DNA of 33,099 nucleotides, taken from contig JAMPBJ010000001.1 of assembly GCA_023666835.1 (NCBI GenBank), forward strand, positions 135,004-168,102, read 5' to 3'. The notes under the pieces were generated by a model, which worked only from the letters and a program-made list of their open reading frames with translations, searched no databases and was not told the origin of the DNA. The translations under genes and the position numbers were made by a program. This document shows, in pieces, positions 3,226-20,439 of this stretch; positions within the stretch are counted from its first letter, which is position 1; each line of letters opens with the position of its first letter. Origin of the DNA: Bacteroides sp. (GTDB lineage Bacteria > Bacteroidota > Bacteroidia > Bacteroidales > Muribaculaceae).

Positions 3226-3750
3226 TCAATATATGATCAGCGAGCTGACCTCAGCATCGTCGGCAAACTTCGAGCGACCGTTGAGAGCGCTGAGCTCGAT
3301 GATGAAGTTGACATATATCTTTTTGGGGTTCATGCTCTTCACCAGCTCGTAGACAGCGGCCATTGTTCCGCCGGTAGCGAGCACATCGTCGTGGATCACC
3401 ACGATATCGTCTTCAGTGATGGCATCGCGATGGATCTCGATGGTGTCCTTGCCATACTCCTTATCGTAGGAGCAGCTGACGGTGTCGGCAGGAAGTTTGC
3501 CGGGCTTGCGGGCAGGCACGAAACCGGCGCCAAGCTCAAACGCCAGGATAGAACCTCCGATAAAACCACGCGATTCAACGCCCACCACCTTCGTCACGCC
3601 TTTATCGCGATAAAGCTGCGAAAGATCCCAGCCGATGATGTGGAGAGCACGCGGATCTTTGAATACCGTGGTGAGATCTTTAAACACAATTCCCTTCTGG
3701 GGAAAATCCATCACATCACGAACTTTAGATTTTACGTATTCCATATTCAT
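3226..3750 (-). CDS. apt: Adenine phosphoribosyltransferase
   Basis: Converts adenine and PRPP to AMP plus pyrophosphate in purine salvage, in the cytoplasm. The 174-residue length matches the family. The PRPP-binding signature is at residues 115-129, DIVVIHDDVLATGGT, with the usual pair of acidic residues and the ATGGT loop. VVGVESRGFIGG (55-66) and GFVPARKPGKLPA (76-88) are also typical of Apt. The window does not settle whether the first ATG or the in-frame ATG two codons later is used. It follows mnmG on the same strand with a 61-bp gap that holds the parS-like palindrome, and a terminator-like hairpin follows it. Confidence 0.97.
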   Translation of the reverse strand: MNMEYVKSKVRDVMDFPQKGIVFKDLTTVFKDPRALHIIGWDLSQLYRDKGVTKVVGVESRGFIGGSILAFELGAGFVPARKPGKLPADTVSCSYDKEYGKDTIEIHRDAITEDDIVVIHDDVLATGGTMAAVYELVKSMNPKKIYVNFIIELSALNGRSKFADDAEVSSLIIY

Positions 3751-3787: not shown

Positions 3788-3803
3788 TGTTCCACGTGGA
3801 ACA
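3788..3803. other. parS-like 16-bp palindrome (candidate ParB site)
   Basis: TGTTCCACGTGGAACA is a perfect 16-bp palindrome and fits the bacterial parS consensus TGTTnCACGTGnAACA at every fixed base. It is in the short gap between the mnmG stop and the apt start. parS sites bind the chromosome-partitioning protein ParB and usually cluster near oriC; mnmG is itself often found near oriC or parAB. No parA, parB or dnaA gene is in this window. The match is seen directly; function is inferred. Confidence 0.7.
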
Positions 3804-3811
3804 ATCATCCG

Positions 3812-5692
3812 TTATCTACCCATAAGCAAAAGCAATATGTTGATGTCACTGGGCGAGATGCCGGGGATTCGTGAAGCCTGGGCGATGGTCTCGGGCTGTA
3901 TTTTTTTTAACTTATGTCGGGCTTCGGTGGAAATAGATTTTACAGTGTCATAGTCGATCTTCCCGCCGATTTTCACATCTTCAAGACGTGCGATCTTTGA
4001 AGCGATCATGCGTTCACGCTCTATATATCCATTATATTTTATCAAGATCTCTGCAGCCTCGATAATCTCTGCGCGGCGATTCTCTTCTATATTTTCATAG
4101 ATAAATCTACACAGCGGTTCGATGTGCTCAGCCAACATTTCAATATTGAGCTGGGGTCGCAAAATAAGATCGTAGAGCTTCACAGACTGACGAAGTGGGG
4201 CAACACCGATCGACTCAAACCACTCGTTGACCACTTCGGCCCTGACAGAATGATTCTGAGCAAAGGCAATCAGTGCATCGCGCTGAGCAATCTTCGACTC
4301 AAATAAACGGTAGCGTTCGTCGGAAGCCAATCCGATCGAATGGCCAAGCGGTGTGAGGCGCACATCGGCATCATCCTGACGGAGCAAGATGCGATATTCG
4401 GCACGCGAAGTGAACATGCGGTATGGTTCGTCGACACCCTTAGTCACAAGGTCGTCGATCAACACTCCAATGTAAGCCTGATCACGGCCGAGTTCCACAG
4501 CCGGTTCGCCGGCACAGTATCTGGCAGCATTAATTCCGGCAATCAAACCCTGGCCTGCCGCTTCCTCATAGCCGGTGGTGCCATTTACTTGCCCGGCGAA
4601 GAACAGCCCGTCGATGAGTTTGGTCTCGAGCGAATGTTTCAGCTGGGTGGGGTCAAAGAAATCGTATTCTATTGCATAGCCGGGGCGGTAAATGGCCACG
4701 TCGCGCAGAGCGGGGATGCTCTCAAGCGCTGCGATCTGCACGTCGAAAGGCAGCGACGATGAGAAACCGTTGAGATAATATTCCTGCGTGGTCTCGCCCT
4801 CCGGTTCCAGGAAGAGCTGATGCTCGGTCTTGTCAGCGAACGTGACGATTTTGGTCTCGATGCTCGGGCAATAACGCGGACCGATGCTCTGGATCTGTCC
4901 ATTGTAGAGCGGCGACCGGGGCAATCCCTCGCGGAGTATATCGTGGGTTGTCGAATTGGTATAGAGGATATGACACTCGCGCTGCCTGAGTTCGCGGTGC
5001 ACGTCGGGCAGGAACGAGAATTTATGGAAATCGTTGTCGCCCTGTTGCGGAGTGGTCAATGACCAGTCTACCGTGCGACCGTCGATGCGCACCGGAGTGC
5101 CCGTTTTCATGCGGTCGGCAACAAAACCAAGTTCTTTGAGTTGTTCTGTCAGGCCATAGGAGGCCGGTTCGGAAACGCGACCGCCCGGGGTCTGCACTTC
5201 GCCAACATGCATCAGTCCGTTAAGGAAGGTGCCAGCGGTCAGCACAACTGCCTTGGCATGGAATTCTACGCCCTGCGCCGTTGCGACACCGCTCAGTCGG
5301 CCGTCGGTAAACAGCAGACGGTTGACCGAGTCCTGCCACATTCGCAAGTTAGGGGTATTTTCAAGAGTTTCGCGCCAGATGGCTGAGAATTTCATGCGGT
5401 CGCTTTGGGCACGCGGACTCCACATGGCAGGACCCTTCGAGCGGTTAAGCATGCGGAACTGAATGGCCGAGCGGTCGGTGACGATGCCCATTTGACCGCC
5501 AAGAGCATCTATCTCTCTGACGATCTGGCCCTTTGCAATGCCGCCTACAGCCGGATTGCAACTCATCTGCGCAATCTTGTTCATATCAATGGTGATCAGA
5601 AGTGTCGATGCACCAAGACGAGCCGACGCAGAAGCGGCTTCACATCCGGCATGTCCGGCTCCAATCACTATCACATCATAGTCGAATCGCAT
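3812..5692 (-). CDS. mnmG: tRNA uridine-34 carboxymethylaminomethyl-modifying enzyme, FAD subunit
   Basis: MnmG works with MnmE to place a carboxymethylaminomethyl group on the wobble uridine of several tRNAs, using FAD and a folate one-carbon donor. The 626-residue length is typical. The N-terminal dinucleotide-binding motif is GAGHAGCEAA (11-20). The family signatures MSCNPAVGGIAKGQIVREID and GTFLNGLMHVGE follow, and the C-terminal helical domain ends with IPGISPSDINILLLLMGR, which includes the region that contacts MnmE and tRNA. It begins 6 bp after the ybeY stop, so the two are almost certainly one transcript. The parS-like palindrome sits just beyond its stop. Confidence 0.98.
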   Translation of the reverse strand: MRFDYDVIVIGAGHAGCEAASASARLGASTLLITIDMNKIAQMSCNPAVGGIAKGQIVREIDALGGQMGIVTDRSAIQFRMLNRSKGPAMWSPRAQSDRMKFSAIWRETLENTPNLRMWQDSVNRLLFTDGRLSGVATAQGVEFHAKAVVLTAGTFLNGLMHVGEVQTPGGRVSEPASYGLTEQLKELGFVADRMKTGTPVRIDGRTVDWSLTTPQQGDNDFHKFSFLPDVHRELRQRECHILYTNSTTHDILREGLPRSPLYNGQIQSIGPRYCPSIETKIVTFADKTEHQLFLEPEGETTQEYYLNGFSSSLPFDVQIAALESIPALRDVAIYRPGYAIEYDFFDPTQLKHSLETKLIDGLFFAGQVNGTTGYEEAAGQGLIAGINAARYCAGEPAVELGRDQAYIGVLIDDLVTKGVDEPYRMFTSRAEYRILLRQDDADVRLTPLGHSIGLASDERYRLFESKIAQRDALIAFAQNHSVRAEVVNEWFESIGVAPLRQSVKLYDLILRPQLNIEMLAEHIEPLCRFIYENIEENRRAEIIEAAEILIKYNGYIERERMIASKIARLEDVKIGGKIDYDTVKSISTEARHKLKKIQPETIAQASRIPGISPSDINILLLLMGR

Positions 5693-5698
5693 GACAGA

Positions 5699-6127
5699 TT
5701 ATATTTCTTTTAACAATGCAAGCGCCTCATCCTCATTGCGTTGCATGATTTCTCGTTCACCGGGACCCTTGTCGTTGATCCCGCACAAATGCAGCACACC
5801 GTGGATGATGACACGATGAAGTTCGACATCATACGTAGCGCCAACCACCTGAGCATTAGAGGCCACAGTGTCGAGGGAGATGAAAATATCACCGCTTATA
5901 CGGCGTCCGTGAGTGTTGTCGAAGGTGATAATATCGGTATAATAGTCGTGATTTAAAAATTGACGGTTGACCTCGAGGATTTTGTCATCATTACAAAATA
6001 TATAGTTCAACGGGCCGACAATTCGGTTGTGGGTGTCGGCAACGCATCGTATCCACTTGCCGACACGTTCAAAGTCGACAGCGGGCAGATCCACACCGTC
6101 GGCCATCCATTGAATCAGGTTATCCAT
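5699..6127 (-). CDS. ybeY: Endoribonuclease YbeY (rRNA maturation factor)
   Basis: YbeY is a metal-dependent endoribonuclease needed for 16S rRNA 3' end maturation and ribosome quality control. I choose the ATG at 6127 (142 residues). The frame is open further upstream, but that region is AT-rich, does not resemble the family and overlaps a likely promoter (6145-6178). The metal-site motif reads HGVLHLCGINDK, with H109 and H113 present. The third ligand, His in Escherichia coli YbeY, is Asp119 here. I recall a similar HLCGYKDK form in other Bacteroidota, so this is probably a lineage trait and not damage. It is the first gene of the run, 6 bp ahead of mnmG. Confidence 0.93.
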   Translation of the reverse strand: MDNLIQWMADGVDLPAVDFERVGKWIRCVADTHNRIVGPLNYIFCNDDKILEVNRQFLNHDYYTDIITFDNTHGRRISGDIFISLDTVASNAQVVGATYDVELHRVIIHGVLHLCGINDKGPGEREIMQRNEDEALALLKEI

Positions 6128-6144
6128 CCTTATTAAATTACTCA

Positions 6145-6178
6145 CAAAAGTAATAAAATATTTGAAAATATAGCCAAA
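6145..6178 (-). promoter_or_regulatory. Bacteroidota-type promoter for ybeY-mnmG
   Basis: On the minus strand TACTTTTG (6152-6145) matches the -7 consensus TAnnTTTG. TTTG (6178-6175) lies 22 bases upstream in the -33 position. The implied start of transcription is only about ten bases before the ybeY ATG at 6127, which supports that start codon. Confidence 0.5.
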
Positions 6179-6311
6179 CAATTTTTCTGAGCATTTTGCA
6201 AAACACGCCAAATACGGTCTTAATGCCTGGATTGATGCAATTTATGCAAAAATTAAGGCCACGAGAATCGAATATTTTCTTCACTACCGATAATCCATAC
6301 GAAATTTTCAC

Positions 6312-6347: not shown

Positions 6348-8888
6348 TTGAATATAAAAAACCATCTCAATCGATTTGCGACATTTATTGCAACGGCAGT
6401 AATTATGATTTTAGGGGTCGGGCTCACACAGGCAAGACAACTCTCACCCGAGGAAGCATTCGCCGCCGTAACCACGGCCGACCGAAAACTGATGAATCCA
6501 AACGGTTCGAACACGACTACGAGGTTCTCCCTGCTCCATACCGAAAAGAGTGCCGATCTCTCAGCCGTGTATGTGATGCAGTCGGGTAGCGAGATTCTGT
6601 TTGTCGCTGCCGACGACGTGGCCTCTCCCCTCTTGGGATGGTGCGACGCCGACGCCGGATTCGACGCCGAGTCAATGCCCGAATCAATGAAATGGCTTCT
6701 TGCAACCTACGCTGAAGAGATAGCATATGCGGTGGAGCATAACCTCCCCGCCTATCAGAGCGACATGCTCTCCACCCGCCCGGCCGACACATATGCCGTC
6801 AGCGGACTGAGCGACATCGCTCCTCTGCTATCCACCCGCTGGAACCAAAGCTCGCCATACAACGACAAATGCCCCGTGCTCAACGGCACACGTTGCCCGA
6901 CCGGCTGCGTGGCCACTGCTATGGCTCAGATCATCAACCACCACAAAAGCCCCGAGCGCGGCATCGGCCAGGTGCAATACACATGGAAACAAAACTCCAA
7001 CCAGACCCTGAGCCTCGACCTTTCGACACTCACATTCGACTGGGACAACATGTCCGACACTTACAGCTCGTCGAGCACCCAGGCTGAGAAAGATGCCGTG
7101 GCAACGCTGATGATGGCATGCGGCTACACCGTCAGCATGGCTTATACGGCCACCGAAAGCGGTGCACAGTCCAACGCCGTGCCTACGGCGCTCATCAACA
7201 ACTTCGGATTTGCCAAAACAGCCACATATCTCTCGCGCGAGGTCTATCCGCTGAACGAATGGATCGCACTGCTCCACAACGAGCTGGCCAACAATCGTCC
7301 CGTCTACTACTCAGGCCGCGACACCGGCGGCCATGCATTTGTGGTCGACGGCTACCGCAGTGGCAACTATTTCCACATCAACTGGGGCTGGGGCGGCACA
7401 AGCGACGGCTATTTCCTCATCACTGCCCTCGACCCGTCGCAGCAGGGAATCGGTGGCAGCTCGTCGGGCTACAACTACGACCAGGCCGCCGTCGTCGGTA
7501 TCCAAAAAGACTTTGATGGAGCAGACTACGTGGTTCGCCTCGAAGCCACCGATGACTTTTCGACATCGGCCAGCGAATACACCCGCTCTGACCTGGTGAT
7601 ATTCGGCGACACCCCCGACTATTTCATCGGCAACCAGACGGCCACCACACTCGAGCCTATATATTTCGGAGTGCGTCTGACCGACGTTTCCAACGGACAG
7701 ACGTCCATGGTGCTGATGGACTCCGACTACTCGCTGCCCCAGGGCTACGGCATACCCAACTTCTTCCTCTACGCCAGCCAATTCCCTACTTCGGGCGAAT
7801 ACATCGTCGAGGCGGCTGCCCGTGTGGCCGGCAAAGACTACCTCATTTATCCACCAATCAGATGCATACGCCAACTTCGGCTGACCGCCACGGCCGACCG
7901 ACTGGTTTTCACTCAGATAAAGGATGAGCCGGTCGTAGCAGTCGACGGCCTCACGCAGACATCGCGGTCATATTCGGGCACGTCGGTGACCATCGATGCC
8001 ACAGCACGCTGCACATCAGGCGAATTCTACGGCAAACTGACACCGAAACTCGGTATAATGCTGGGGTCGCGGCTCACCACCTTTGCCACCGGCAATGCCA
8101 TACTTGTCGACCTACCGGAGGGCGACTCCCTGCCGCTGTCGTTCGAAATACCGCTGTCGGGAGTCGTGGCCGGAAAGTACTATGTCGTGATCTGCAATCC
8201 GGCCGGCGATATCGTCAGCACCACTCCCCTGGAGGTCGAAGTGCTCGCTATGCCCGAAGGCACTCCGTCGCTGACCCTCACCGGCCTGAGCTGCAACGCC
8301 GACGAAGGGGAGGGCACATACCGGTCACCCTGGACCATCCCAACCAACCGCATCGAACTGCTGGCCACCGTTCACAACGAATCGGGACTATACAACGGTC
8401 GCATACGCGGCTTCATCTTCCCCCCGGCCGGAGGCACCAGCCTCGACTATCTGGGCGACCACAGTTTCATGGCCGGACCCGGCGAATCGGTCGAAGTAGC
8501 CATTAAGAGCGATCTCTACAGCCTTGCCGACGAGGAGACATATTTCTTCTGCCTCTACTACATCGACAACTTCACCACCTCAGGCACCGAGACTGCCGTG
8601 CGCTTTCCCGAATACTACTATATCACCACCTCCGGACGCCTGGCCGCCATCGAGGAGATAGCTGTCGATGGCGATGACATCGCTGCACGCTTCGAAGCAG
8701 GGCGATTACTGGTGGAATCAGCCACCGGAATCAGCCGCATCGACGTCTATTCGCTCACAGGCCAATTGCTCGCCGGTGCCTGCTTCGACACCGCTGTTGA
8801 CCGCGCTACTCTCGATGTGGCAGCCGGCCCGGTGATAGTGCTCGCAGTAGATGCTCAGGGACGCCGCCATGCATTCAAAGTGAAATAA
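6348..8888 (+). CDS. Secreted C10 family cysteine protease (streptopain/interpain-like) with C-terminal sorting-like domain
   Basis: An 846-residue secreted protease. I see no in-frame ATG that would keep the signal peptide; TTG at 6348 gives a basic, then hydrophobic N-terminus ending LGVGLTQA, a normal export signal. Residues about 31-150 fit the inhibitory propeptide of the C10 family (LSPEEAFAAV near the start). The catalytic cysteine is C187 in TGCVATAMAQI, the catalytic histidine is H329 in GGHAFVVDGY, and HINWGWGG (343-350) is the usual downstream motif. Residues after about 375 form long beta-rich domains. The last 55 residues (VYSLTGQLL ... HAFKVK) resemble a type A T9SS sorting domain. 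The family includes Streptococcus SpeB and Prevotella interpain, which cut host proteins. It stands alone, with its own promoter candidate. Substrate unknown. Confidence 0.9.
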   Translation: MNIKNHLNRFATFIATAVIMILGVGLTQARQLSPEEAFAAVTTADRKLMNPNGSNTTTRFSLLHTEKSADLSAVYVMQSGSEILFVAADDVASPLLGWCDADAGFDAESMPESMKWLLATYAEEIAYAVEHNLPAYQSDMLSTRPADTYAVSGLSDIAPLLSTRWNQSSPYNDKCPVLNGTRCPTGCVATAMAQIINHHKSPERGIGQVQYTWKQNSNQTLSLDLSTLTFDWDNMSDTYSSSSTQAEKDAVATLMMACGYTVSMAYTATESGAQSNAVPTALINNFGFAKTATYLSREVYPLNEWIALLHNELANNRPVYYSGRDTGGHAFVVDGYRSGNYFHINWGWGGTSDGYFLITALDPSQQGIGGSSSGYNYDQAAVVGIQKDFDGADYVVRLEATDDFSTSASEYTRSDLVIFGDTPDYFIGNQTATTLEPIYFGVRLTDVSNGQTSMVLMDSDYSLPQGYGIPNFFLYASQFPTSGEYIVEAAARVAGKDYLIYPPIRCIRQLRLTATADRLVFTQIKDEPVVAVDGLTQTSRSYSGTSVTIDATARCTSGEFYGKLTPKLGIMLGSRLTTFATGNAILVDLPEGDSLPLSFEIPLSGVVAGKYYVVICNPAGDIVSTTPLEVEVLAMPEGTPSLTLTGLSCNADEGEGTYRSPWTIPTNRIELLATVHNESGLYNGRIRGFIFPPAGGTSLDYLGDHSFMAGPGESVEVAIKSDLYSLADEETYFFCLYYIDNFTTSGTETAVRFPEYYYITTSGRLAAIEEIAVDGDDIAARFEAGRLLVESATGISRIDVYSLTGQLLAGACFDTAVDRATLDVAAGPVIVLAVDAQGRRHAFKVK

Positions 8889-11910: not shown

Positions 11911-14900
11911 ATGAAGTCAAAGGTAACAAGCTTGTTATTGATGCTTTTACTCTTCCCTGTGATCAGTGTGATGGCACAGACATCACAAGTCAAGGGTATT
12001 GTAACTGACACAAGTGGCGATCCACTCGTTGGTGTTTCTGTAATTGTGAAAGGTACTTCTTTCGGAACTCAGACCAACATCGACGGCGAATTCAGTCTCA
12101 ACGCAAAACAAGGCGATGTGCTGAAATTTACTTACATCGGTTTCCGTCAGGTGGAACTCGCAGTCCCCGCCGACGGTAAGATCAATCTCGTAATGGAAGA
12201 GGAAGCCACCGCTCTCGACGAAGTTGTGGTGACCGCACTCGGTATCAAGCGCGAACAGAAGGCTCTGTCGTACAACGTGCAGACCATCAAAGGCGACGCT
12301 CTCACCTCCAACAAAGACGCCAACTTCATGAACTCACTCGCCGGCAAGGTGGCAGGTGTCAACATCAGCTCCAGCTCTGCAGGTTCGGGTTCGGCTGCCC
12401 GTGTGATCATGCGCGGTATGAAATCGCTCTCGGGCAACGACAACGCCCTCTACGTGATCGACGGTATCCCCATGTTTGACGTCAACACCGGTTCTGAAAG
12501 CGGCGGTACGATGGGTCACCAGCCCGGTTCAAGCTCCGTTGCCGACATCAACCCCGACGATATCGAATCAATGTCAGTGCTCTCAGGCCCCTCTGCAGCC
12601 GCACTCTACGGCTCTGCAGCCGCCAGCGGTGTTGTGCTCATCACCACCAAGAAAGGTACTGAAGGCCGTGCACGCCTGACCTACTCCAACACCACTCAGT
12701 TCCATCGCGCATGGATGACCCCGAAATTCCAGAACACCTACGGCAACGTGCCCGGTGAATTCACCTCTTGGGGCAACAAGCTCGAAACTCCCTCCAGCTA
12801 CGATCCGATGGACTTCTTCCAGACCGGCGTAACTGAAATCAACGCCCTCACCCTCACCGTGGGCAACGCCAAGAACCAGACATTTGCATCGGCTGCAGCC
12901 ACCAACGCTCCCGGCATCATGCCCGAAGCCGACTACAACCGCTACAACTTCTCTATCCGCAACACCACCAACTTCTTCAACGACAAGTTGACCCTCGACC
13001 TTGGTGCAAGCTACATCATCCAGAACAACAAGAACTTCGTAGGATCAGGCCACTACTTCTCGCCGATCCCCGCTCTCTGGTTGTTCCCCCGCGGCGAAGA
13101 CTTCAACGAAGTGCGCATGTTTGAACGCTTCGATCCCTCACGCAATATCATGACCCAGTACTGGGAGCCCAAATACGGCCAGGAAAACCTTGCCCTCCAA
13201 AACCCTTACTGGACTCAGAAACGCATGGACCGCACTGCCCGCAAACAGCGCTACATGTTCAACGCATCTTTGAAATATGACATCCTCCCCTGGTTGTATG
13301 TGATCGGTCGTGTACGCGTCGACAACCAGAACATCGTGTCGGAGCAGAAATACTATGCATCGACAGTGACCACCCTCGCAGGTTCACTCATGGGTATGTA
13401 TGGCAAGACCCGCACAATGGACCGCACCACTTACGCCGACATCATGGCATCGATGAACAAAAACTTCATCAACAACCGCCTAAACGTCAACATCCAGGCA
13501 GGTGCCTCTATCAACGATATGCTTGAAGAAAGCGACGCAGTCAGCGGCGGCCTCAACAAGGTGCCCAACGTGTTCACGGTAGGCAACATCGACAAAGCCA
13601 ACTTCAAACACAGCGACGCCGAATGGCACGATCAGATTCAGTCAGTATTCGGATCAGTCGAACTCGGCTGGGACAGCCAGTACTACTTGACCGTAACCGG
13701 TCGTAACGACTGGGCTTCAATGCTCGCATTCACCGACAAACTCAGCTACTTCTATCCTTCGGTAGGTGCCAGCTGGTTGATCAGCGAAACTCTTCGCGAC
13801 TATCTCCCCCAGGCCATCTCGTTCTTGAAAGTTCGCGGATCGTGGGCAGAAGTTGCAAAAGCTCCGGACCGCTATCTGACTCGTCCGCAGTTTGAATACT
13901 TCGATCAGACCGACCAATTCAAATGGCCGTCGATCCACTACAACCCCAACCTCAAACCCGAGAACACCAAATCATGGGAAATCGGTTTGAGCGCCAAGTT
14001 CCTCAACAACACCATCGGTCTTGAACTCACCTACTACAAGGCCAACACCTACAACCAGACCTTCCAGGTCGACGCATCTGCATCGTCGGGCTACGAAAAG
14101 AACCTCGTCCAGACCGGTAACATCGAAAACCGCGGTGTGGAAGCAGCTCTTACCTATCAGAACCAGTGGGGCGACTGGCGTTTCAACACCGGTATTACCT
14201 ACTCTCTGAACCGCAACAAAGTGATCCAGCTCGCCAACGGCGCACTCGATCCCGAAACCGGCCTCCCCATCGAGATGGAATACTACGCAGCCACCAGCTG
14301 CCTCGGTATGAGCGGCGGTCCTGCAATCCGTCTGTATGAAGGCGGCTCAATGGGCGACCTCTACAGCAACCTCCGTCTCCGCGAATCAGGCAACGGCTAT
14401 GTATGGAAAGATCCCGCAACCGGCAAAGTACAGCTCGAACAGGTTGACTACTTCAAGGTTGGTTCACTTCTGCCCAACTTCAACATGGGTTGGACCGGTA
14501 CTCTCGGTTGGAAAGACCTCAGCGTATCATGGGCTGTTACAGGTCGCTTCGGTGGCCGCGTCATCAGCGACACTCAGGCCTACCTCGACCGCTACGGCGT
14601 GTCGGAAGTATCCGCAGCTGCCCGCGACAACGGTGGTGTACCCATCCCCGGCAACGGCGTTGCTGATCCTCAGAACTACTACGAAACCATCTCCGGTGCT
14701 GCCGGCACATATTATGTATATGATGCAACCAACGTGCGCCTCGCTGACCTCACCATCAGCTACACTCTTCCCCGCACATTGCTCAAAAACATCGCCGACG
14801 TTACCCTCTCGCTCACCGGCAAGAACCTTTGGATGATCTATTGCAAAGCTCCGTTCGACCCCGAATCGACTTCAGCAACAACCAACAACTTCTATCAGGG

Positions 14901-14964
14901 TATCGACTACTTCCAGTCGCCGAGCCTCCGCACTTATGGTTTCAATGTTAAATTCACATTCTGA
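11911..14964 (+). CDS. SusC-like TonB-dependent outer-membrane transporter
   Basis: A 1017-residue outer-membrane barrel that imports glycan fragments together with its SusD partner, driven by TonB. A signal peptide (1-22, ending SVMAQ) precedes a carboxypeptidase-regulatory-like domain (about 26-98, VKGIVTDTSGDPLVGVSV). The stretch ALDEVVVTALG (101-111) leads into the plug, with LYVIDGIPMFD near 180-190. The barrel then runs to a C-terminal aromatic residue (YGFNVKFTF). Size and order match the SusC/RagA family. It is the first gene of a five-gene locus with the SusD ATG only 17 bp downstream. The coding sequence uses many GGT glycine codons where the preceding kinase favours GGC, which fits high expression. 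Confidence 0.97.
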   Translation: MKSKVTSLLLMLLLFPVISVMAQTSQVKGIVTDTSGDPLVGVSVIVKGTSFGTQTNIDGEFSLNAKQGDVLKFTYIGFRQVELAVPADGKINLVMEEEATALDEVVVTALGIKREQKALSYNVQTIKGDALTSNKDANFMNSLAGKVAGVNISSSSAGSGSAARVIMRGMKSLSGNDNALYVIDGIPMFDVNTGSESGGTMGHQPGSSSVADINPDDIESMSVLSGPSAAALYGSAAASGVVLITTKKGTEGRARLTYSNTTQFHRAWMTPKFQNTYGNVPGEFTSWGNKLETPSSYDPMDFFQTGVTEINALTLTVGNAKNQTFASAAATNAPGIMPEADYNRYNFSIRNTTNFFNDKLTLDLGASYIIQNNKNFVGSGHYFSPIPALWLFPRGEDFNEVRMFERFDPSRNIMTQYWEPKYGQENLALQNPYWTQKRMDRTARKQRYMFNASLKYDILPWLYVIGRVRVDNQNIVSEQKYYASTVTTLAGSLMGMYGKTRTMDRTTYADIMASMNKNFINNRLNVNIQAGASINDMLEESDAVSGGLNKVPNVFTVGNIDKANFKHSDAEWHDQIQSVFGSVELGWDSQYYLTVTGRNDWASMLAFTDKLSYFYPSVGASWLISETLRDYLPQAISFLKVRGSWAEVAKAPDRYLTRPQFEYFDQTDQFKWPSIHYNPNLKPENTKSWEIGLSAKFLNNTIGLELTYYKANTYNQTFQVDASASSGYEKNLVQTGNIENRGVEAALTYQNQWGDWRFNTGITYSLNRNKVIQLANGALDPETGLPIEMEYYAATSCLGMSGGPAIRLYEGGSMGDLYSNLRLRESGNGYVWKDPATGKVQLEQVDYFKVGSLLPNFNMGWTGTLGWKDLSVSWAVTGRFGGRVISDTQAYLDRYGVSEVSAAARDNGGVPIPGNGVADPQNYYETISGAAGTYYVYDATNVRLADLTISYTLPRTLLKNIADVTLSLTGKNLWMIYCKAPFDPESTSATTNNFYQGIDYFQSPSLRTYGFNVKFTF

Positions 14965-14981
14965 TCCACAACTCGACTATT

Positions 14982-16547
14982 ATGAACACTAAAATGTATA
15001 AAAATATAGCATCCTTGATGCTTGGTGGTGCACTCGTTTTCGGCACAGCAAGCTGTACCGACAAGTTCGAGGACTTCAACACCGACCCCAAGAATCCCAC
15101 AGTGGAACAGATGGAAGGTGACTTCGCCTACACCGCCACACTCATCGGCAACATGGTTCCCATCGTGGCTCTTGGTCAGGAAAACGACTTCCAGATGATC
15201 GATCAGATGATCGGTTGCGAATACGGCCACATGATGGCAGCCTCCAACAACTGGGGTACCGACGGTATGTTCGGCAACTACAATCCCCGCATCGGCTGGC
15301 AGGGTATCCCCTTCACCACTCTGATGCCTAAGTATATGTACACTCCCTTCTTCCAGATCCGCGACGTGTCGTCCGGCGAAGGTCTCGTGTACCACTGGGC
15401 CAACATTCTCCGCATCTACGGCACTCAGCGTGTCAGCGACTGCTACGGTCCCACTCCGTTCTCTATGATCGGTGGCGGCGACAGCTTCCAGGTTGAATAT
15501 GACGACACCCCCGACTTGTACAACTACATGTTTGAGGAACTCGACAAATCGATCGCAGTGCTCAAAACTGCCGTTGGCGGTACAGTATCGTCCACTCTCC
15601 AGCAGGCCGACGTGGTCTATGGTGGCGACATCGCCAAATGGGTGAAATTTGCCAACACACTCAAGCTCCGTATGGCAATGCGTATTGTCAATGCCAACCC
15701 GAACCTCGCCAAGCAGAAAGCAGAAGAGGCAGCCAACGATCCCGGCGGTCTCGTAGCCGATGCTACCGACGCAGCATGGTCAAGCTATATCCCCGGCGGC
15801 AACGCCCTCCAGAAGACTTCCGAACTCTGGGGTGAAGGTCGCGTCAGCGCCGACATCACCGCCTACATGAACGGCTATAACGACCCCCGTCTGCCGATCC
15901 TCGTGGCTCCCGCAGCCGATGGCTCATTCAACGGCGCACGTCAGGGTGTATATCGTTACCAAACCGGTTTCTCGACCTACTCACTGTCGACCACCAAATC
16001 CGACTCCAAACTGCTCTCCATGGCTGCTTGCGAATCGTGGTTCCTTCGTGCTGAAGGCGCTCTCCGCGGCTGGAACATGGGCGGTCAGTCGGCCAAAGAA
16101 TACTACGAAACAGGCGTACAAGTCTCTATGAACGAGCGCGGCGCTTCAATCGGCAACTACCTCGAAGGCACCGACGGTCCGGCCAACTACACTGCAACCG
16201 ACAACACGGCCTACAGCGTGAACGCCCAGACCACCATCTGCCCGAAATATGACGAATCCGCTTCATTTGAAACCAACCTCGAACGCATCATCGTTCAGAA
16301 ATGGCTTGGCAACTTCCCCAACGGTTGGGAATCATGGGCCGACTTCCGTCGCACAGGCTATCCCAAATGGTTCCCCATCTACGAGAACCGCTCGACCGAT
16401 GGTGTGACCACTTCACGCGGCATGCGTCGCATTCCGTTCCCTCAGTCGGAATTCAACACCAACGAAGCAAACGTGAAAAAAGCGATCCAGATGCTTGGCG
16501 GCCCCGACACCGGCGCAACCGACCTCTGGTGGTGTAAAAAGAACTAA
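14982..16547 (+). CDS. SusD/RagB-like surface glycan-binding lipoprotein
   Basis: A 521-residue lipoprotein that caps the SusC barrel and binds the incoming glycan at the cell surface. The signal peptide ends GTASC, giving a lipidated C25 followed by TDKFEDFN. An early acidic residue after the cysteine fits export to the surface in Bacteroidota. The N-terminal FEDFNTDPKNPT segment and the C-terminal GWESWADFRRTGYP ... RRIPFPQSEFNTN segment are characteristic of the SusD family, probably the SusD-like_2 branch. It directly follows SusC and lies 41 bp before the GH18 gene. Ligand is inferred from the neighbours to be a host-type glycan containing N-acetylglucosamine. Confidence 0.95.
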   Translation: MNTKMYKNIASLMLGGALVFGTASCTDKFEDFNTDPKNPTVEQMEGDFAYTATLIGNMVPIVALGQENDFQMIDQMIGCEYGHMMAASNNWGTDGMFGNYNPRIGWQGIPFTTLMPKYMYTPFFQIRDVSSGEGLVYHWANILRIYGTQRVSDCYGPTPFSMIGGGDSFQVEYDDTPDLYNYMFEELDKSIAVLKTAVGGTVSSTLQQADVVYGGDIAKWVKFANTLKLRMAMRIVNANPNLAKQKAEEAANDPGGLVADATDAAWSSYIPGGNALQKTSELWGEGRVSADITAYMNGYNDPRLPILVAPAADGSFNGARQGVYRYQTGFSTYSLSTTKSDSKLLSMAACESWFLRAEGALRGWNMGGQSAKEYYETGVQVSMNERGASIGNYLEGTDGPANYTATDNTAYSVNAQTTICPKYDESASFETNLERIIVQKWLGNFPNGWESWADFRRTGYPKWFPIYENRSTDGVTTSRGMRRIPFPQSEFNTNEANVKKAIQMLGGPDTGATDLWWCKKN

Positions 16548-16588
16548 TCAAACCATATCTTAATCAATCTTTAACCAATTATTCTAAA

Positions 16589-17605
16589 ATGAAAGGACTT
16601 AAAGCAATAATTTTTGCCGCAGCAGCTCTGATCACCGTACCCGCGGTGATCACCTCCTGCGACGATTGGACCGAGCCCAAGGCTGAAGATTTCTATCAGC
16701 CGCAGACGCCCGGCTATAAGAACAATCTCAAGGACTACTTCGCATCGCCCCACAAAGTGATGTTCGGTTGGTTCGGTTCGTGGACCGGCACTGCAAAAGC
16801 CAACTCTCTGGTTGGTCTGCCCGACTCCACCGACTTCGTCAGCCTCTGGCTCCAGTGGGGTCCGCTGACCGACGCTCAGCAGCAAGACCTCAAGGCATTC
16901 CAGGATCGCGGCTCACGCGCAGTGCTCTGCTGGCTTGCAACCAACATCGGTGAAAATATCACTCCGGGCTACAGCGGCGTTCCTCCCATCGAAGCTGCTC
17001 AGGAATATTGGGGATTCACCAACGGCGATGTTCCCTCTATGATCGAAGCAGCCAAGAAGTATGCCGACGCTATCGCCGACACTTGCGACAAATACAACAT
17101 CGACGGTTTCGACATGGACATCGAGGCTACCGGTACGCTAATCTATGCTTCCGACAACTCTGTCATGAACGAATTCCTCCGTCAGCTGCGCAAACGCTTC
17201 GACGAAAAAGGCCGAATGCTCGTGCTTGACATCCCCGGCGGTACAGGCTGGCTCGGCTACTACGACCGCCTGGACAACGACGTGCTCGAATCGGTTGACT
17301 ACATCTGCTGGCAGACCTACGAACTCGGTCACAGCGGTCTCGACAACTTCTTCAATGCCGTTAAGAACCGCGCAGGTAAAGGCGAAATCTTTGAGAACGT
17401 GATGAAAAAATCGATCGTGACAGCCACCTTCGAACGTGCATCTGACAAGGACCTCTTCCCCGTTCAGTCGACCTGGAAATACAGCGGCGGCATCGAACAC
17501 GCCGGACAGGGCGCATATCACATCGAATATGACTACCCGGGAAATCCTGACTATCCCTATGTTCGCAAAGGTATAACCACTCAGAACCCGCCGATCAATA
17601 ACTAA
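16589..17605 (+). CDS. GH18 lipoprotein, likely endo-beta-N-acetylglucosaminidase
   Basis: A 338-residue lipoprotein (signal peptide ending VITSC, lipidated C24) with a glycoside hydrolase family 18 barrel. The catalytic motif DxxDxDxE is intact as DGFDMDIE at residues 172-179, with E179 the predicted acid and D177 the residue assisting the substrate N-acetyl group. VESVDYICWQTYELG later in the barrel fits the conserved substrate-binding aromatic region. GH18 enzymes inside SusCD loci of gut Bacteroides, such as BT1044 and BT3987 of B. thetaiotaomicron, release N-glycans from glycoproteins by cutting the chitobiose core. The closest layout I recall is the BT1044 locus. Chitinase activity is an alternative but less likely in this setting. 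It is 23 bp ahead of the next gene. Confidence 0.88.
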   Translation: MKGLKAIIFAAAALITVPAVITSCDDWTEPKAEDFYQPQTPGYKNNLKDYFASPHKVMFGWFGSWTGTAKANSLVGLPDSTDFVSLWLQWGPLTDAQQQDLKAFQDRGSRAVLCWLATNIGENITPGYSGVPPIEAAQEYWGFTNGDVPSMIEAAKKYADAIADTCDKYNIDGFDMDIEATGTLIYASDNSVMNEFLRQLRKRFDEKGRMLVLDIPGGTGWLGYYDRLDNDVLESVDYICWQTYELGHSGLDNFFNAVKNRAGKGEIFENVMKKSIVTATFERASDKDLFPVQSTWKYSGGIEHAGQGAYHIEYDYPGNPDYPYVRKGITTQNPPINN

Positions 17606-17628
17606 CCCCAAAAATAGGAATATAATAC

Positions 17629-18831
17629 ATGAAAAAGATAGCAAGAAACCTGTTCGCTCTTGGACTCATCGCAACCGCATTCACTGCTTGCGATGATGCC
17701 AAAAACGATGTCATCGACAACATGGTCTACATCTCTGAGGCAGCCACTGAGCCCTCAACTGAGATCATCCTCGGCCAGGCCGGTGAAAAGACCACTACCA
17801 AAGTCAATGTGCGCATGGCTCAGAAAGCAGCCGTCGACACCAAAGTGACTCTCGCTCTTGACGAATCGGTGCTCACCGACTACAACAAGCGCAACGAGAC
17901 TGAATTCCAGCCCATGCCCGCACAGTATGTTGAATTCCCCACTGAAGTCGTGATCCCCGCCGGATCCACTCAGGCTGAAGTTGAAGTGACCATCACTTCG
18001 TTTGAAGGTGAAGCCGGTGTTGACTACGCAACTCCGATGCGAGTGACCTCTGCTTCGGGCGTTGAAGTTGCTCCCACTTCGAGCAAATTCATCATCCTTT
18101 TCGGTAAGATCCTCGTGCAGAAATGCCCGAAATTCTTCTACGACAGCAAGTTCCAGATCCCGTTTGCTGCTACTGAAACTCTCGACAGCTACACACTCGA
18201 ATGGTGGGTACGCGTTGTGAACCGTCAGGGCAACGGTGGTTTCTCGACCAACAACCAGGCCATCTTCAACTTCCAGGCCAACTACGAACTCTACATCCGC
18301 TTTGGTGACCTTACTTATGGTGGTAGCGACGGCCGCGCCGGAAAGCACGAATTCCTCCAGATCAAGACTATGGGTATCGACGCCAACTACGACTCGGGCG
18401 ACCCCAAAGACGAATCCAAGAAACTCCCCTGGGGTGAATGGATCCACTTCGCTCACAGCTACGACAACGCTACCGGCGACGTGATTCTCTACAAGAACGG
18501 TATCGAAGTCAACCGTGCAAACGGTGGAGCTGGCAAGCCCCTCGAACTGACAGGCGTTCAGATGTGCTCCAGCGGTTCTAACTACTTCAGAGACTACATG
18601 GAATTTGCCCAGGTACGTCTGTGGAAGACCTGCCGCACTGCTGCCCAGATCCAGAAGTATATGAAGAAAGAGGTTAAATACACCGATCCTAACCTCGTGT
18701 TCTATCTCCCGATGAACGAAGGCTCGGGCTCGACACTCCACGACGTTACCGGCAACGGCCACGATGCCACTATCGGCGACCTTGGCGGCAACTCTGAGGC
18801 ATACGCCTGGACTGAATACACATTCGAATAA
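17629..18831 (+). CDS. DUF1735 and LamG-domain surface glycan-binding lipoprotein
   Basis: A 400-residue lipoprotein (C21 in TAFTACDD) without catalytic motifs. Residues about 30-155 look like DUF1735, an immunoglobulin-like domain found in many SusCD-linked proteins (LALDESVLTDYNKRN and FPTEVVIPAGSTQAEVEV). Residues about 165-400 form a concanavalin-like LamG_3 lectin domain: TLEWWVRV, GEWIHFAHSYD, GDVILYKNGIEV, and VFYLPMNEGSGSTLHDVTGN. The acidic residues after the lipid cysteine suggest surface display. It most likely helps hold the glycan or glycoprotein for the GH18 enzyme. It is transcribed with the preceding genes; a strong hairpin follows 85 bp after its stop. Confidence 0.88.
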   Translation: MKKIARNLFALGLIATAFTACDDAKNDVIDNMVYISEAATEPSTEIILGQAGEKTTTKVNVRMAQKAAVDTKVTLALDESVLTDYNKRNETEFQPMPAQYVEFPTEVVIPAGSTQAEVEVTITSFEGEAGVDYATPMRVTSASGVEVAPTSSKFIILFGKILVQKCPKFFYDSKFQIPFAATETLDSYTLEWWVRVVNRQGNGGFSTNNQAIFNFQANYELYIRFGDLTYGGSDGRAGKHEFLQIKTMGIDANYDSGDPKDESKKLPWGEWIHFAHSYDNATGDVILYKNGIEVNRANGGAGKPLELTGVQMCSSGSNYFRDYMEFAQVRLWKTCRTAAQIQKYMKKEVKYTDPNLVFYLPMNEGSGSTLHDVTGNGHDATIGDLGGNSEAYAWTEYTFE

Positions 18832-18915
18832 TCAAACAGCTTGACTTTCAAGACAACCGATCAAAGTTCACAAAAACAAGATGGTTGAAATGACAGACCC
18901 ACAATCGTAGATAAT

Positions 18916-18952
18916 CGTTGCTACAGCCGCTCAAGCGGTGGCTGTAGCAACG
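18916..18952 (+). terminator. Strong hairpin inside the glycan locus
   Basis: CGTTGCTACAGC (18916-18927) pairs perfectly with GCTGTAGCAACG (18941-18952), with a further CGC/GCG pairing inside. A run of five T begins nine bases later (18962). It may be a partial terminator or an mRNA-stabilising 3' stem, reducing expression of the last gene relative to the first four. Confidence 0.55.
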
Positions 18953-19062
18953 ACATCGCGATTTTTATACGATCAGTTCTAACCATGATTGACAACCGAA
19001 CTCAACATCACAGCATTTCTTGAAAAAAGCAAACCAAAATCATCGCATATATAAAATCAAAC

Positions 19063-20439
19063 ATGAAAAAGTTTTTTAAATACGCAGCGCTATTTGCAGC
19101 AGCAATCGTATTGATGCCACTGGCAGCTTGCGACGATGACGATACCGTAGACCCCTACGACATCAACTACTGCTACGTCTACCAGCCCAGCCAGACGGAT
19201 GCCCGCCTTGAATACAAAGCCAACGGACAATTCCTCATCGACATCACCGATCCTCTGAAACTGATGCCGGTGCGCCTGACCAAAGCAGCTCCCAGCGATA
19301 TCACCGTCACTGTAGCCATCGATCCGAGCCTCGTTGAAGAATACAACACTACCAACGGTACGAACTATGTATTGCTTGAAAATGCTCAGATCGTAAACCC
19401 CAAACTCACTATTCTCAAAGGCGAGTATGTATCAGCCGACTCTATCACAGTATCGTTTGATCACAATGCGTTCCAGACTGGCGACGAAAACTACATTCTT
19501 CCCGTGGTGCTCAAGGACGCAAGCGGTCTCAACATCTCTAAGAGCAGCCGCATATTCCTGACTTTCACTTCGGAATACAAAGCCAACATCGTCACTTTGA
19601 CTTCAAGTCGCAACCTGATCATCACCAATGATCCCGATGAAACAGGCTGGGAAACAAAGAACACCAACGTGACCATCAACAACTTCCTCACCACCAAGTG
19701 GGCAGCTGACGATGCTATCACAGTGAAAGCTGAAGTTGACCCGACTCTCGTTGCCGACTACAACGCCGAATACGGAACAAACTACCAGACTCTTCAAGCA
19801 ACTGTCAATCCTTCGAATCTGGTTATCGCTGAAGGCGCATCTTCAGTAGCTCTCAACTTGACCCTGGGCGACTACACCGGAGTTGCCAACGATATCGAAT
19901 ACCTCGTGCCCGTGAAACTGACTTTGGTAAGCGGCGAAGGCGCTGAAATGGCTGTTGAAAACGAAGTTGCTTACATCCAGGTGATTGCTCTCCCTCTGGT
20001 TGTCAGCTGCACAACATCGACCAGCGGTTTGACCCAGATCTCACCCTCGAGCGACTGGACCGGTATTTCGCACACACTCAACTATGGCGATGAAGACTTC
20101 TCGTCAATCTTGTTGAGCAACAGTGGCTATTATGGTGTTGAAACCGGCGATCAACTCGTGGTTGACCTTGGCCAAGTCTACACCGACGTAAAAGCCTTCG
20201 GCTTCCAGTTCTATGCATGGTACTATGGTCTCTCTGATCTCAAAGATGTTGAAGTCAGCACCAACGGTACAACATGGACTTCGTACGGCGACTGGACTTC
20301 GACCAACACTTCGACTCCCAACCTTTATGTAGTGTTCTCGAAACCGGCTAAATTCCAGTATCTGCGTTTCACTGCCGGCGACTACAGCTACAGCGCGGGC
20401 TACGGTTGCTACATCCGTCAGATCAAATTCTACAACTAA
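19063..20439 (+). CDS. DUF1735 repeat and discoidin-like surface lipoprotein
   Basis: A 458-residue lipoprotein (lipidated C23 followed by DDDD, a good surface-export signal). Two copies of a DUF1735-like domain follow: IDPSLVEEYNTTNGTNYVLL (about 87-106) and VDPTLVADYNAEYGTNYQTL (about 226-245) are clearly related segments. The C-terminal 130 residues (ISHTLNYGDEDFSS ... GDQLVVDLGQVYTDVKAFGFQ ... YLRFTAG ... CYIRQIKFYN) look like an F5/8 type C (discoidin) carbohydrate-binding domain. The likely role is binding the target glycan at the surface. It is separated from the previous gene by 231 bp holding a hairpin, so it may be expressed at a different level. A strong terminator follows. Confidence 0.85.
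   Translation: MKKFFKYAALFAAAIVLMPLAACDDDDTVDPYDINYCYVYQPSQTDARLEYKANGQFLIDITDPLKLMPVRLTKAAPSDITVTVAIDPSLVEEYNTTNGTNYVLLENAQIVNPKLTILKGEYVSADSITVSFDHNAFQTGDENYILPVVLKDASGLNISKSSRIFLTFTSEYKANIVTLTSSRNLIITNDPDETGWETKNTNVTINNFLTTKWAADDAITVKAEVDPTLVADYNAEYGTNYQTLQATVNPSNLVIAEGASSVALNLTLGDYTGVANDIEYLVPVKLTLVSGEGAEMAVENEVAYIQVIALPLVVSCTTSTSGLTQISPSSDWTGISHTLNYGDEDFSSILLSNSGYYGVETGDQLVVDLGQVYTDVKAFGFQFYAWYYGLSDLKDVEVSTNGTTWTSYGDWTSTNTSTPNLYVVFSKPAKFQYLRFTAGDYSYSAGYGCYIRQIKFYN

Follow-up and report, generated by a model that had tools for sequence, protein, structure and literature searches.

Palindrome in the gap between mnmG and apt

Is the 16-bp palindrome between mnmG and apt in this Muribaculaceae genome a parS site at which ParB loads onto the chromosome, and, if so, does it mark the neighborhood of the replication origin? 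An earlier note on this DNA had proposed both. The window, i.e., the whole stretch of 33,099 nucleotides that was analyzed, corresponds to positions 135004–168102 of contig C3 in an assembly (G000) of 1,785,936 bases and 11 contigs, which is approximately 79% complete. The features around the palindrome, whose gene names agree with NCBIfam models, are as follows:

3226..3750, minus strand: apt, matching NF002636 and TIGR01090 above the cut-off; the next gene downstream
3788..3803, no strand (palindrome): putative parS site TGTTCCACGTGGAACA, 0 mismatches, the sole match with at most one mismatch, at a conserved position
3812..5692, minus strand: mnmG (gidA), matching TIGR00136 (E 2.8e-242); the anchor gene of the site
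5699..6211, minus strand: ybeY, matching TIGR00043 above the cut-off; the upstream neighbor of mnmG

The sequence is perfectly palindromic and matches the parS consensus TGTTNCACGTGNAACA with 0 mismatches, and the claim of the earlier note that all 16 bases fit this consensus was borne out, including agreement at all 14 fixed positions. Its placement in a gap beside mnmG was also correct. The mnmG–apt gap measures 61 bp, and the palindrome lies inside it, 8 bp beyond the mnmG stop codon (codon end at 3812, minus strand), with the apt start (3750) 37 bp downstream. On the other side of mnmG, the gap to ybeY is only 6 bp long here and carries no parS, while in a number of Bacteroidota from outside the order parS lies in this gap.

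Two other regions of the window were judged by eye from their translations. Positions 6348–8888 encode a look-alike of large secreted C10-family (streptopain-like) peptidases, with a TTG start in the ORF list. Positions 11911–20439 form an operon-like run with a SusC/SusD-like pair, then a GH18-like enzyme and two surface-lipoprotein-like genes, and this run looks like a glycan-utilization locus.

The window contains one exact parS match and two further matches with three mismatches. For matches with up to three mismatches, three were observed versus 1.22 expected, and three were reached in 11 of 100 shuffles; the two three-mismatch sites are near the chance level. These two sites and the shortness of the motif are the points in favor of a chance match, to which we give a negligible probability. 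The expectation for 14 specified bases in 33 kb is approximately 1e-4 by simple arithmetic, which agrees with the earlier statement that a random exact match was very unlikely, the site is exact and unique in its own assembly, and chance is refuted by the retention of the site beside mnmG in relatives (described below). The search of the whole genome for the 16-mer with up to one mismatch, which the earlier note had suggested, returned this palindrome as the single match, with no scatter. As the assembly is approximately 79% complete, a second parS could be missing from it.

Occurrence of the site in related genomes

Genomes of the same genus, family, order, and phylum were searched, and the reversed parS pattern served as the background control. 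The same-genus search (up to two mismatches) covered six of seven genomes, and each of the six had exactly one exact site; the remaining matches had two mismatches, and in five of these genomes the reversed control gave more matches than the real pattern. The seventh genome of the genus, G099, has four matches with at most one mismatch.

At the family level, a match with at most one mismatch was found in all 119 genomes (own genome included), with exactly one match in 85 and more in 34. The reversed control was present at the same threshold in 52 of the 119, and one-mismatch matches alone can therefore be background; the position beside mnmG is stronger evidence than one-mismatch presence in the family. 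Exact sites were found in 54 of 79 genomes of the order and in none of the other 25 (reversed control, 0/79), and in 65 of 89 genomes of the phylum and in none of the other 24 (reversed control, 1/89), with the own genome included in both sets.

When up to two mismatches were allowed in 12 genomes, the reversed control was equal or higher in eight. The real pattern exceeded the control in the other four, i.e., G111 (3 vs. 2), Parabacteroides gordonii G284 (29 vs. 3), G288 (22 vs. 11), and G289 (27 vs. 19). At least two of the 29 matches in P. gordonii are exact, and two exact ones lie 330 kb apart on its contig C1. P. gordonii may thus hold many ParB sites, and having a single site is not universal.

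Retention of the site beside mnmG

Named mnmG loci were fetched by mnmG regardless of the site, and the best 80 of 587, mostly Bacteroidales, were used; the closest relative among these best 80 was Duncaniella, with 76% identity, and the named mnmG relatives suggest that the family is Muribaculaceae. All 80 loci include the 3' end of mnmG, and the interval from −60 to +250 of its stop was searched. The site was present in 75 loci (58 exact and 17 with one mismatch), lying 0–15 bp after the stop in 57 of the 75, with a median distance of 8 bp. No site with up to two mismatches was found in this interval in the other five, one of which (L114) has an exact copy approximately 1.5 kb before the mnmG stop. 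A search of these intervals in the 80 loci with 200 shuffled palindromes (158 distinct) yielded no match with at most one mismatch.

Loci fetched by the site gave the same picture. Among 30 such loci from the family, the mnmG end is covered in 29, and the site adjoins it in every one of them (28 exact); among 30 from the order, it is covered in 23, and again every one has the site next to it. The distance to mnmG was searched in 80 of the 98 order and phylum genomes with listed exact-site positions, which leave out 20 of the 65 exact-site genomes from the phylum set, and the site was within 500 bp of mnmG in 74 of these 80 (33 of 36 in the order and 41 of 44 outside it). For the 18 genomes outside this search, mnmG adjoins the site in all their fetched loci. 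The six exceptions were G219, G266, G258, G167, G175, and G186, in which the site was 1.7–25.5 kb away on the same contig (three genomes) or on another contig (three genomes). The side of mnmG differed by lineage. Within the order, the site was on the 3' side only in 29 of 33 genomes; outside the order (n = 41), it was 5' only in 19, on both sides in 14, 3' only in seven, and 5' plus inside mnmG in one.

The information content averaged 1.98 bits at the 14 core positions and 0.37 bits at 50 flanking positions for 30 family sequences, and 1.92 and 0.25 bits, respectively, for 71 of the 80 named loci; these rows were picked for a site with at most one mismatch at or after the stop, and the core values are high by construction. 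The comparison of core and flanks shows that the flanks of the site have diverged among relatives. Separately, parS-like copies (at most one mismatch) were seen at approximately +600–750 or +1100–1270 from the mnmG stop in 11 relatives (L062, L064, L071, L075, L110, L115, L117, L123, L125, L128, and L133).

The conserved position also bears on two readings that do not involve ParB. A 3'-terminal hairpin in the mnmG transcript, acting as a terminator or stability element, would fit a palindrome situated 8 bp past the stop, as a perfect copy could fold. By eye, the palindrome is followed on neither strand by the T-run expected of an intrinsic terminator. Furthermore, the inner pair at positions 5 and 12 in the 75 named copies is C-A in 30, T-G in 20, C-G in 16, T-A in eight, and A-G in one, leaving this pair unpaired in the sense RNA of 31 copies (C-A or A-G) and in the antisense RNA of the 20 T-G copies and the A-G copy. 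Because the pair varies in this way, the hairpin is kept in neither RNA strand, and this variation, together with the fact that 19 of the 41 genomes outside the order have the site 5' only of mnmG, argues against an RNA element, which we consider extremely unlikely.

The short distance to the apt start would likewise suit an operator for a transcription factor controlling apt or an mnmG–apt operon. However, apt is not a constant neighbor: 21 of the 80 named mnmG loci yielded no apt (three of the 21 extend less than 1500 bp past mnmG), and 18 of these 21 retain the site beside mnmG. A regulator would seldom have just one site per genome, and the match to the ParB consensus at every fixed position also counts against an operator, making this explanation highly improbable.

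Partner proteins ParB and ParA

The earlier note had made its reading depend on the presence of a ParB homologue, and one with parS-type residues was found. The genome has one ParB match (TIGR00180, E 3e-55) at C3:48494–49030 on the minus strand, and a ParA gene directly adjoins it. The best solved-structure match of this protein is a ParB family protein, and it aligns to both ParB and Spo0J structures. In Caulobacter numbering, assigned in the alignment by counting from the GK.R motif, it has Q162, G170, K171, R173, N178, G201, and R204, with K at 172, and it also carries GERRYR and ENIQRE; the expected recognition and CTP motifs are thus present.

By E-value, the best NCBIfam match of this ParB was the Noc model TIGR04285, which scored below its cut-off (241.8 vs. 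315 bits). R173 and G201 are described as absolutely conserved in ParB orthologs, with Q and R in Noc, in the sections of PMC7383237 that concern these residues. The Noc-type Q173/R201 combination does not occur in the ParB studied here, which has R and G instead. These residues at the switch positions therefore support parS rather than a Noc-binding site (NBS).

Distance to parAB and dnaA, and search for a condensin

In the own genome, parAB is 90 kb from the site. In eleven other one-contig cases, parS and parB are separated by 0.4–2.2 Mb in linear distance: 872 kb in G098, 716 in G111, 631 in G286, 697 in P. gordonii (G284), 519 in Duncaniella (G285), 733 in G202, 883 in G251, 1340 in G253, 404 in G246, 2159 in G200, and 708 in G237. 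These separations represent the 12 of 21 ParB-searched genomes in which the best ParB match and parS are on one contig; the G286 value rests on a one-mismatch site, and weaker ParB-family matches in G284, G110, and G286 were left out. Should the single-contig genomes be closed circles, parS and ParB would be at most approximately 1.3 Mb apart by the shorter path. The dnaA gene of the own genome is on contig C4; by contig arithmetic, its distance from the site is at least approximately 210 kb.

The SMC hinge (PF06470) gave no match in 10 of 11 genomes, G253 being the only one with a match. As a control, the hinge was detected in 10 of 14 named genomes and missed in Caulobacter. Caulobacter has an SMC, and the negative result is therefore not firm. 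The search covered hinges of the PF06470 type. According to the portion of PMC10197239 that treats this point, no known condensin was found in Muribaculum intestinale or Bacteroides caecimuris.

Possible proximity to the replication origin

The earlier note had further placed the segment in the origin-proximal domain. This part of its proposal gained support from relatives and met conflicting evidence in the own genome. In P. gordonii, where parS is at 2.25 Mb, the strand-corrected third-position skew changes sign (minus to plus) in the interval 2.28–2.40 Mb, and in G251, where parS is at 2.567 Mb, it switches within 2.47–2.70 Mb. All eight placeable 16S genes (three in G251, two in G253, and three in P. 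gordonii) are directed away from parS, G251 being taken as a closed circle; a fourth P. gordonii gene, the G286 gene, and the G013 fragments are on other contigs, and the search detected no 16S rRNA in the own assembly, which is approximately 79% complete. The rplB gene is directed away from parS in G251, G253, P. gordonii, and Duncaniella and is on another contig in the remaining five of nine genomes (own included). The authors of PMC10197239 located the origin of 12 gut genomes, M. intestinale among them, from GC skew and clusters of parS; they state that these placements are supported by read coverage and caution that dnaA is not always at the origin.

The earlier note had recommended setting the positions of the 16-mer against GC skew and the location of dnaA and parAB. 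In the own genome, parAB lies at a distance of 90 kb, and dnaA is on a different contig. A local maximum of the cumulative skew falls at 136–140 kb, where the site lies (138.8 kb); the skew then declines to 480 kb and climbs above the value at the site by 740 kb. The change from plus to minus at the site is the opposite of the usual sign of an origin and the sign usual for a terminus. We rejected this maximum as decisive proof of an origin, given its local extent, its sign, and the orientation of the marker genes.

Genes are mostly on the minus strand at 30–110 and 130–140 kb and mostly on the plus strand at 140–180 kb, and the mostly plus stretch at 110–130 kb breaks the strand pattern around the site. 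The rpoB and rpoC genes, named by their motifs, are on the plus strand at 282–284 kb and directed away from the site, while rpsA (named by eye) is on the plus strand at 97–99 kb, head-on toward the site from 40 kb. Three tRNA genes were found in 13 stretches, all directed away from the site and too few to weigh. In Duncaniella, plus-strand rpoBC lies 28 kb and plus-strand rpsA approximately 275 kb to the left of parS, both directed toward it, and the strand-corrected skew is weak, without a clear switch at parS. In both genomes, parAB is on the minus strand further left, as is rplB in Duncaniella.

Clusters of DnaA boxes were tried as an origin marker and rejected: no three-box cluster was found in the first 200 kb of contig C3 with at most one mismatch or in 740 kb with a relaxed box. 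Two exact boxes 0.5 kb apart, at C3:97919 and C3:98438, lie inside the repeats of rpsA (GLIHI coding motif), and such rpsA-internal boxes are a trap for origin finders. As a separate observation, the coding strands of contig C3 and of Duncaniella contig C11 are C-rich at third positions. The strand-corrected skew of the own genome turns from plus to minus near parS, opposite to that of P. gordonii and G251, and GC-skew origin calls in the family may therefore mislead.

A parS that lies away from the origin in this family, with the origin nearer to parAB and rpsA, would account for the plus-to-minus flip at the site, the plus-strand rpsA to its left, the plus-strand rpoBC and rpsA to the left of parS in Duncaniella, and the minus-strand parAB (with rplB in Duncaniella) further left. 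Against it stand the skew switches near parS in P. gordonii and G251, the own rpoBC and three tRNA genes directed away from the site, and, in the part of PMC10197239 that reports them, parS- and skew-based origins backed by read coverage, Muribaculum included. We regard this arrangement as unlikely, although a serious candidate. Proximity of parS to the origin is likely for the phylum, and the evidence in the own genome is conflicting.

Proposed role of the site

Because the comparison reveals its retention beside mnmG in relatives, we consider it very likely that the palindrome is a chromosomal, centromere-like parS, and it is predicted to be probably the only one on the chromosome. The ParB loading site proposed in the earlier note is thus strongly supported as a predicted identity by the single site, the parS-type ParB with its ParA, and the retention beside mnmG.

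The mechanism that we propose follows studied ParABS systems, and the steps of the CTP-dependent ParB clamp are taken from them (in part from PMC7333895). A ParB dimer would recognize the palindrome through its helix-turn-helix, bind CTP, close as a clamp, slide into the DNA of mnmG and apt, and build a partition complex. Nucleoid-bound ParA would then move this complex, and the newly copied site would segregate early.

An ancestral origin gene cluster is mnmG-rsmG-parAB-dnaA. The proximity of parS to mnmG probably dates back to such a cluster, from which parAB and dnaA would have moved away, leaving parS with mnmG. The genes gidA, parA, parB, and dnaA are listed among origin genes in the relevant text of PMC2099444. 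More broadly, we lean toward the view that the centromere of Bacteroidota is a fixed, mnmG-tied locus of phylum age, usually with one or a few parS that directly adjoin the gene on its 3' or 5' side, despite parAB (and here also dnaA) being elsewhere, and that it may operate in many lineages with no recognizable SMC, via ParA alone or an unknown condensin.

The site itself is of a known kind, and what stands out is its tie to mnmG throughout the phylum. We found no description of an mnmG-anchored parS in Bacteroidota in the literature that we covered, which did not extend to the survey by Livny et al. (2007), and such a description may be published. The site offers a sequence-only landmark of the centromere for Bacteroidota, in which dnaA may not mark the origin (PMC10197239, in the part cited above), and a well-defined predicted site for studying ParABS in bacteria without a detected SMC hinge. 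It also raises the question, which can be tested, of why parS has kept its place at mnmG while parAB has relocated.

Comparison with known systems

The closest known system is the chromosomal parS of ParABS (16 bp, TGTTNCACGTGNAACA), which the site resembles in sequence, in its one or few copies, and in the accompanying parS-type ParB and ParA. It differs in location, as the usual parS is beside parAB, whereas here a single copy is beside mnmG, with parAB 90 kb off. The NBS of Firmicutes is also a palindrome bound by a ParB paralogue, and binding is predicted here. The NBS sequence is different from parS, and Noc has Q and R at the switch positions, at which the own ParB has R and G. Lastly, the parS sites of M. 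intestinale and B. caecimuris, as presented in the portion of PMC10197239 devoted to them, likewise belong to gut Bacteroidales, and there parS together with GC skew placed the origin.
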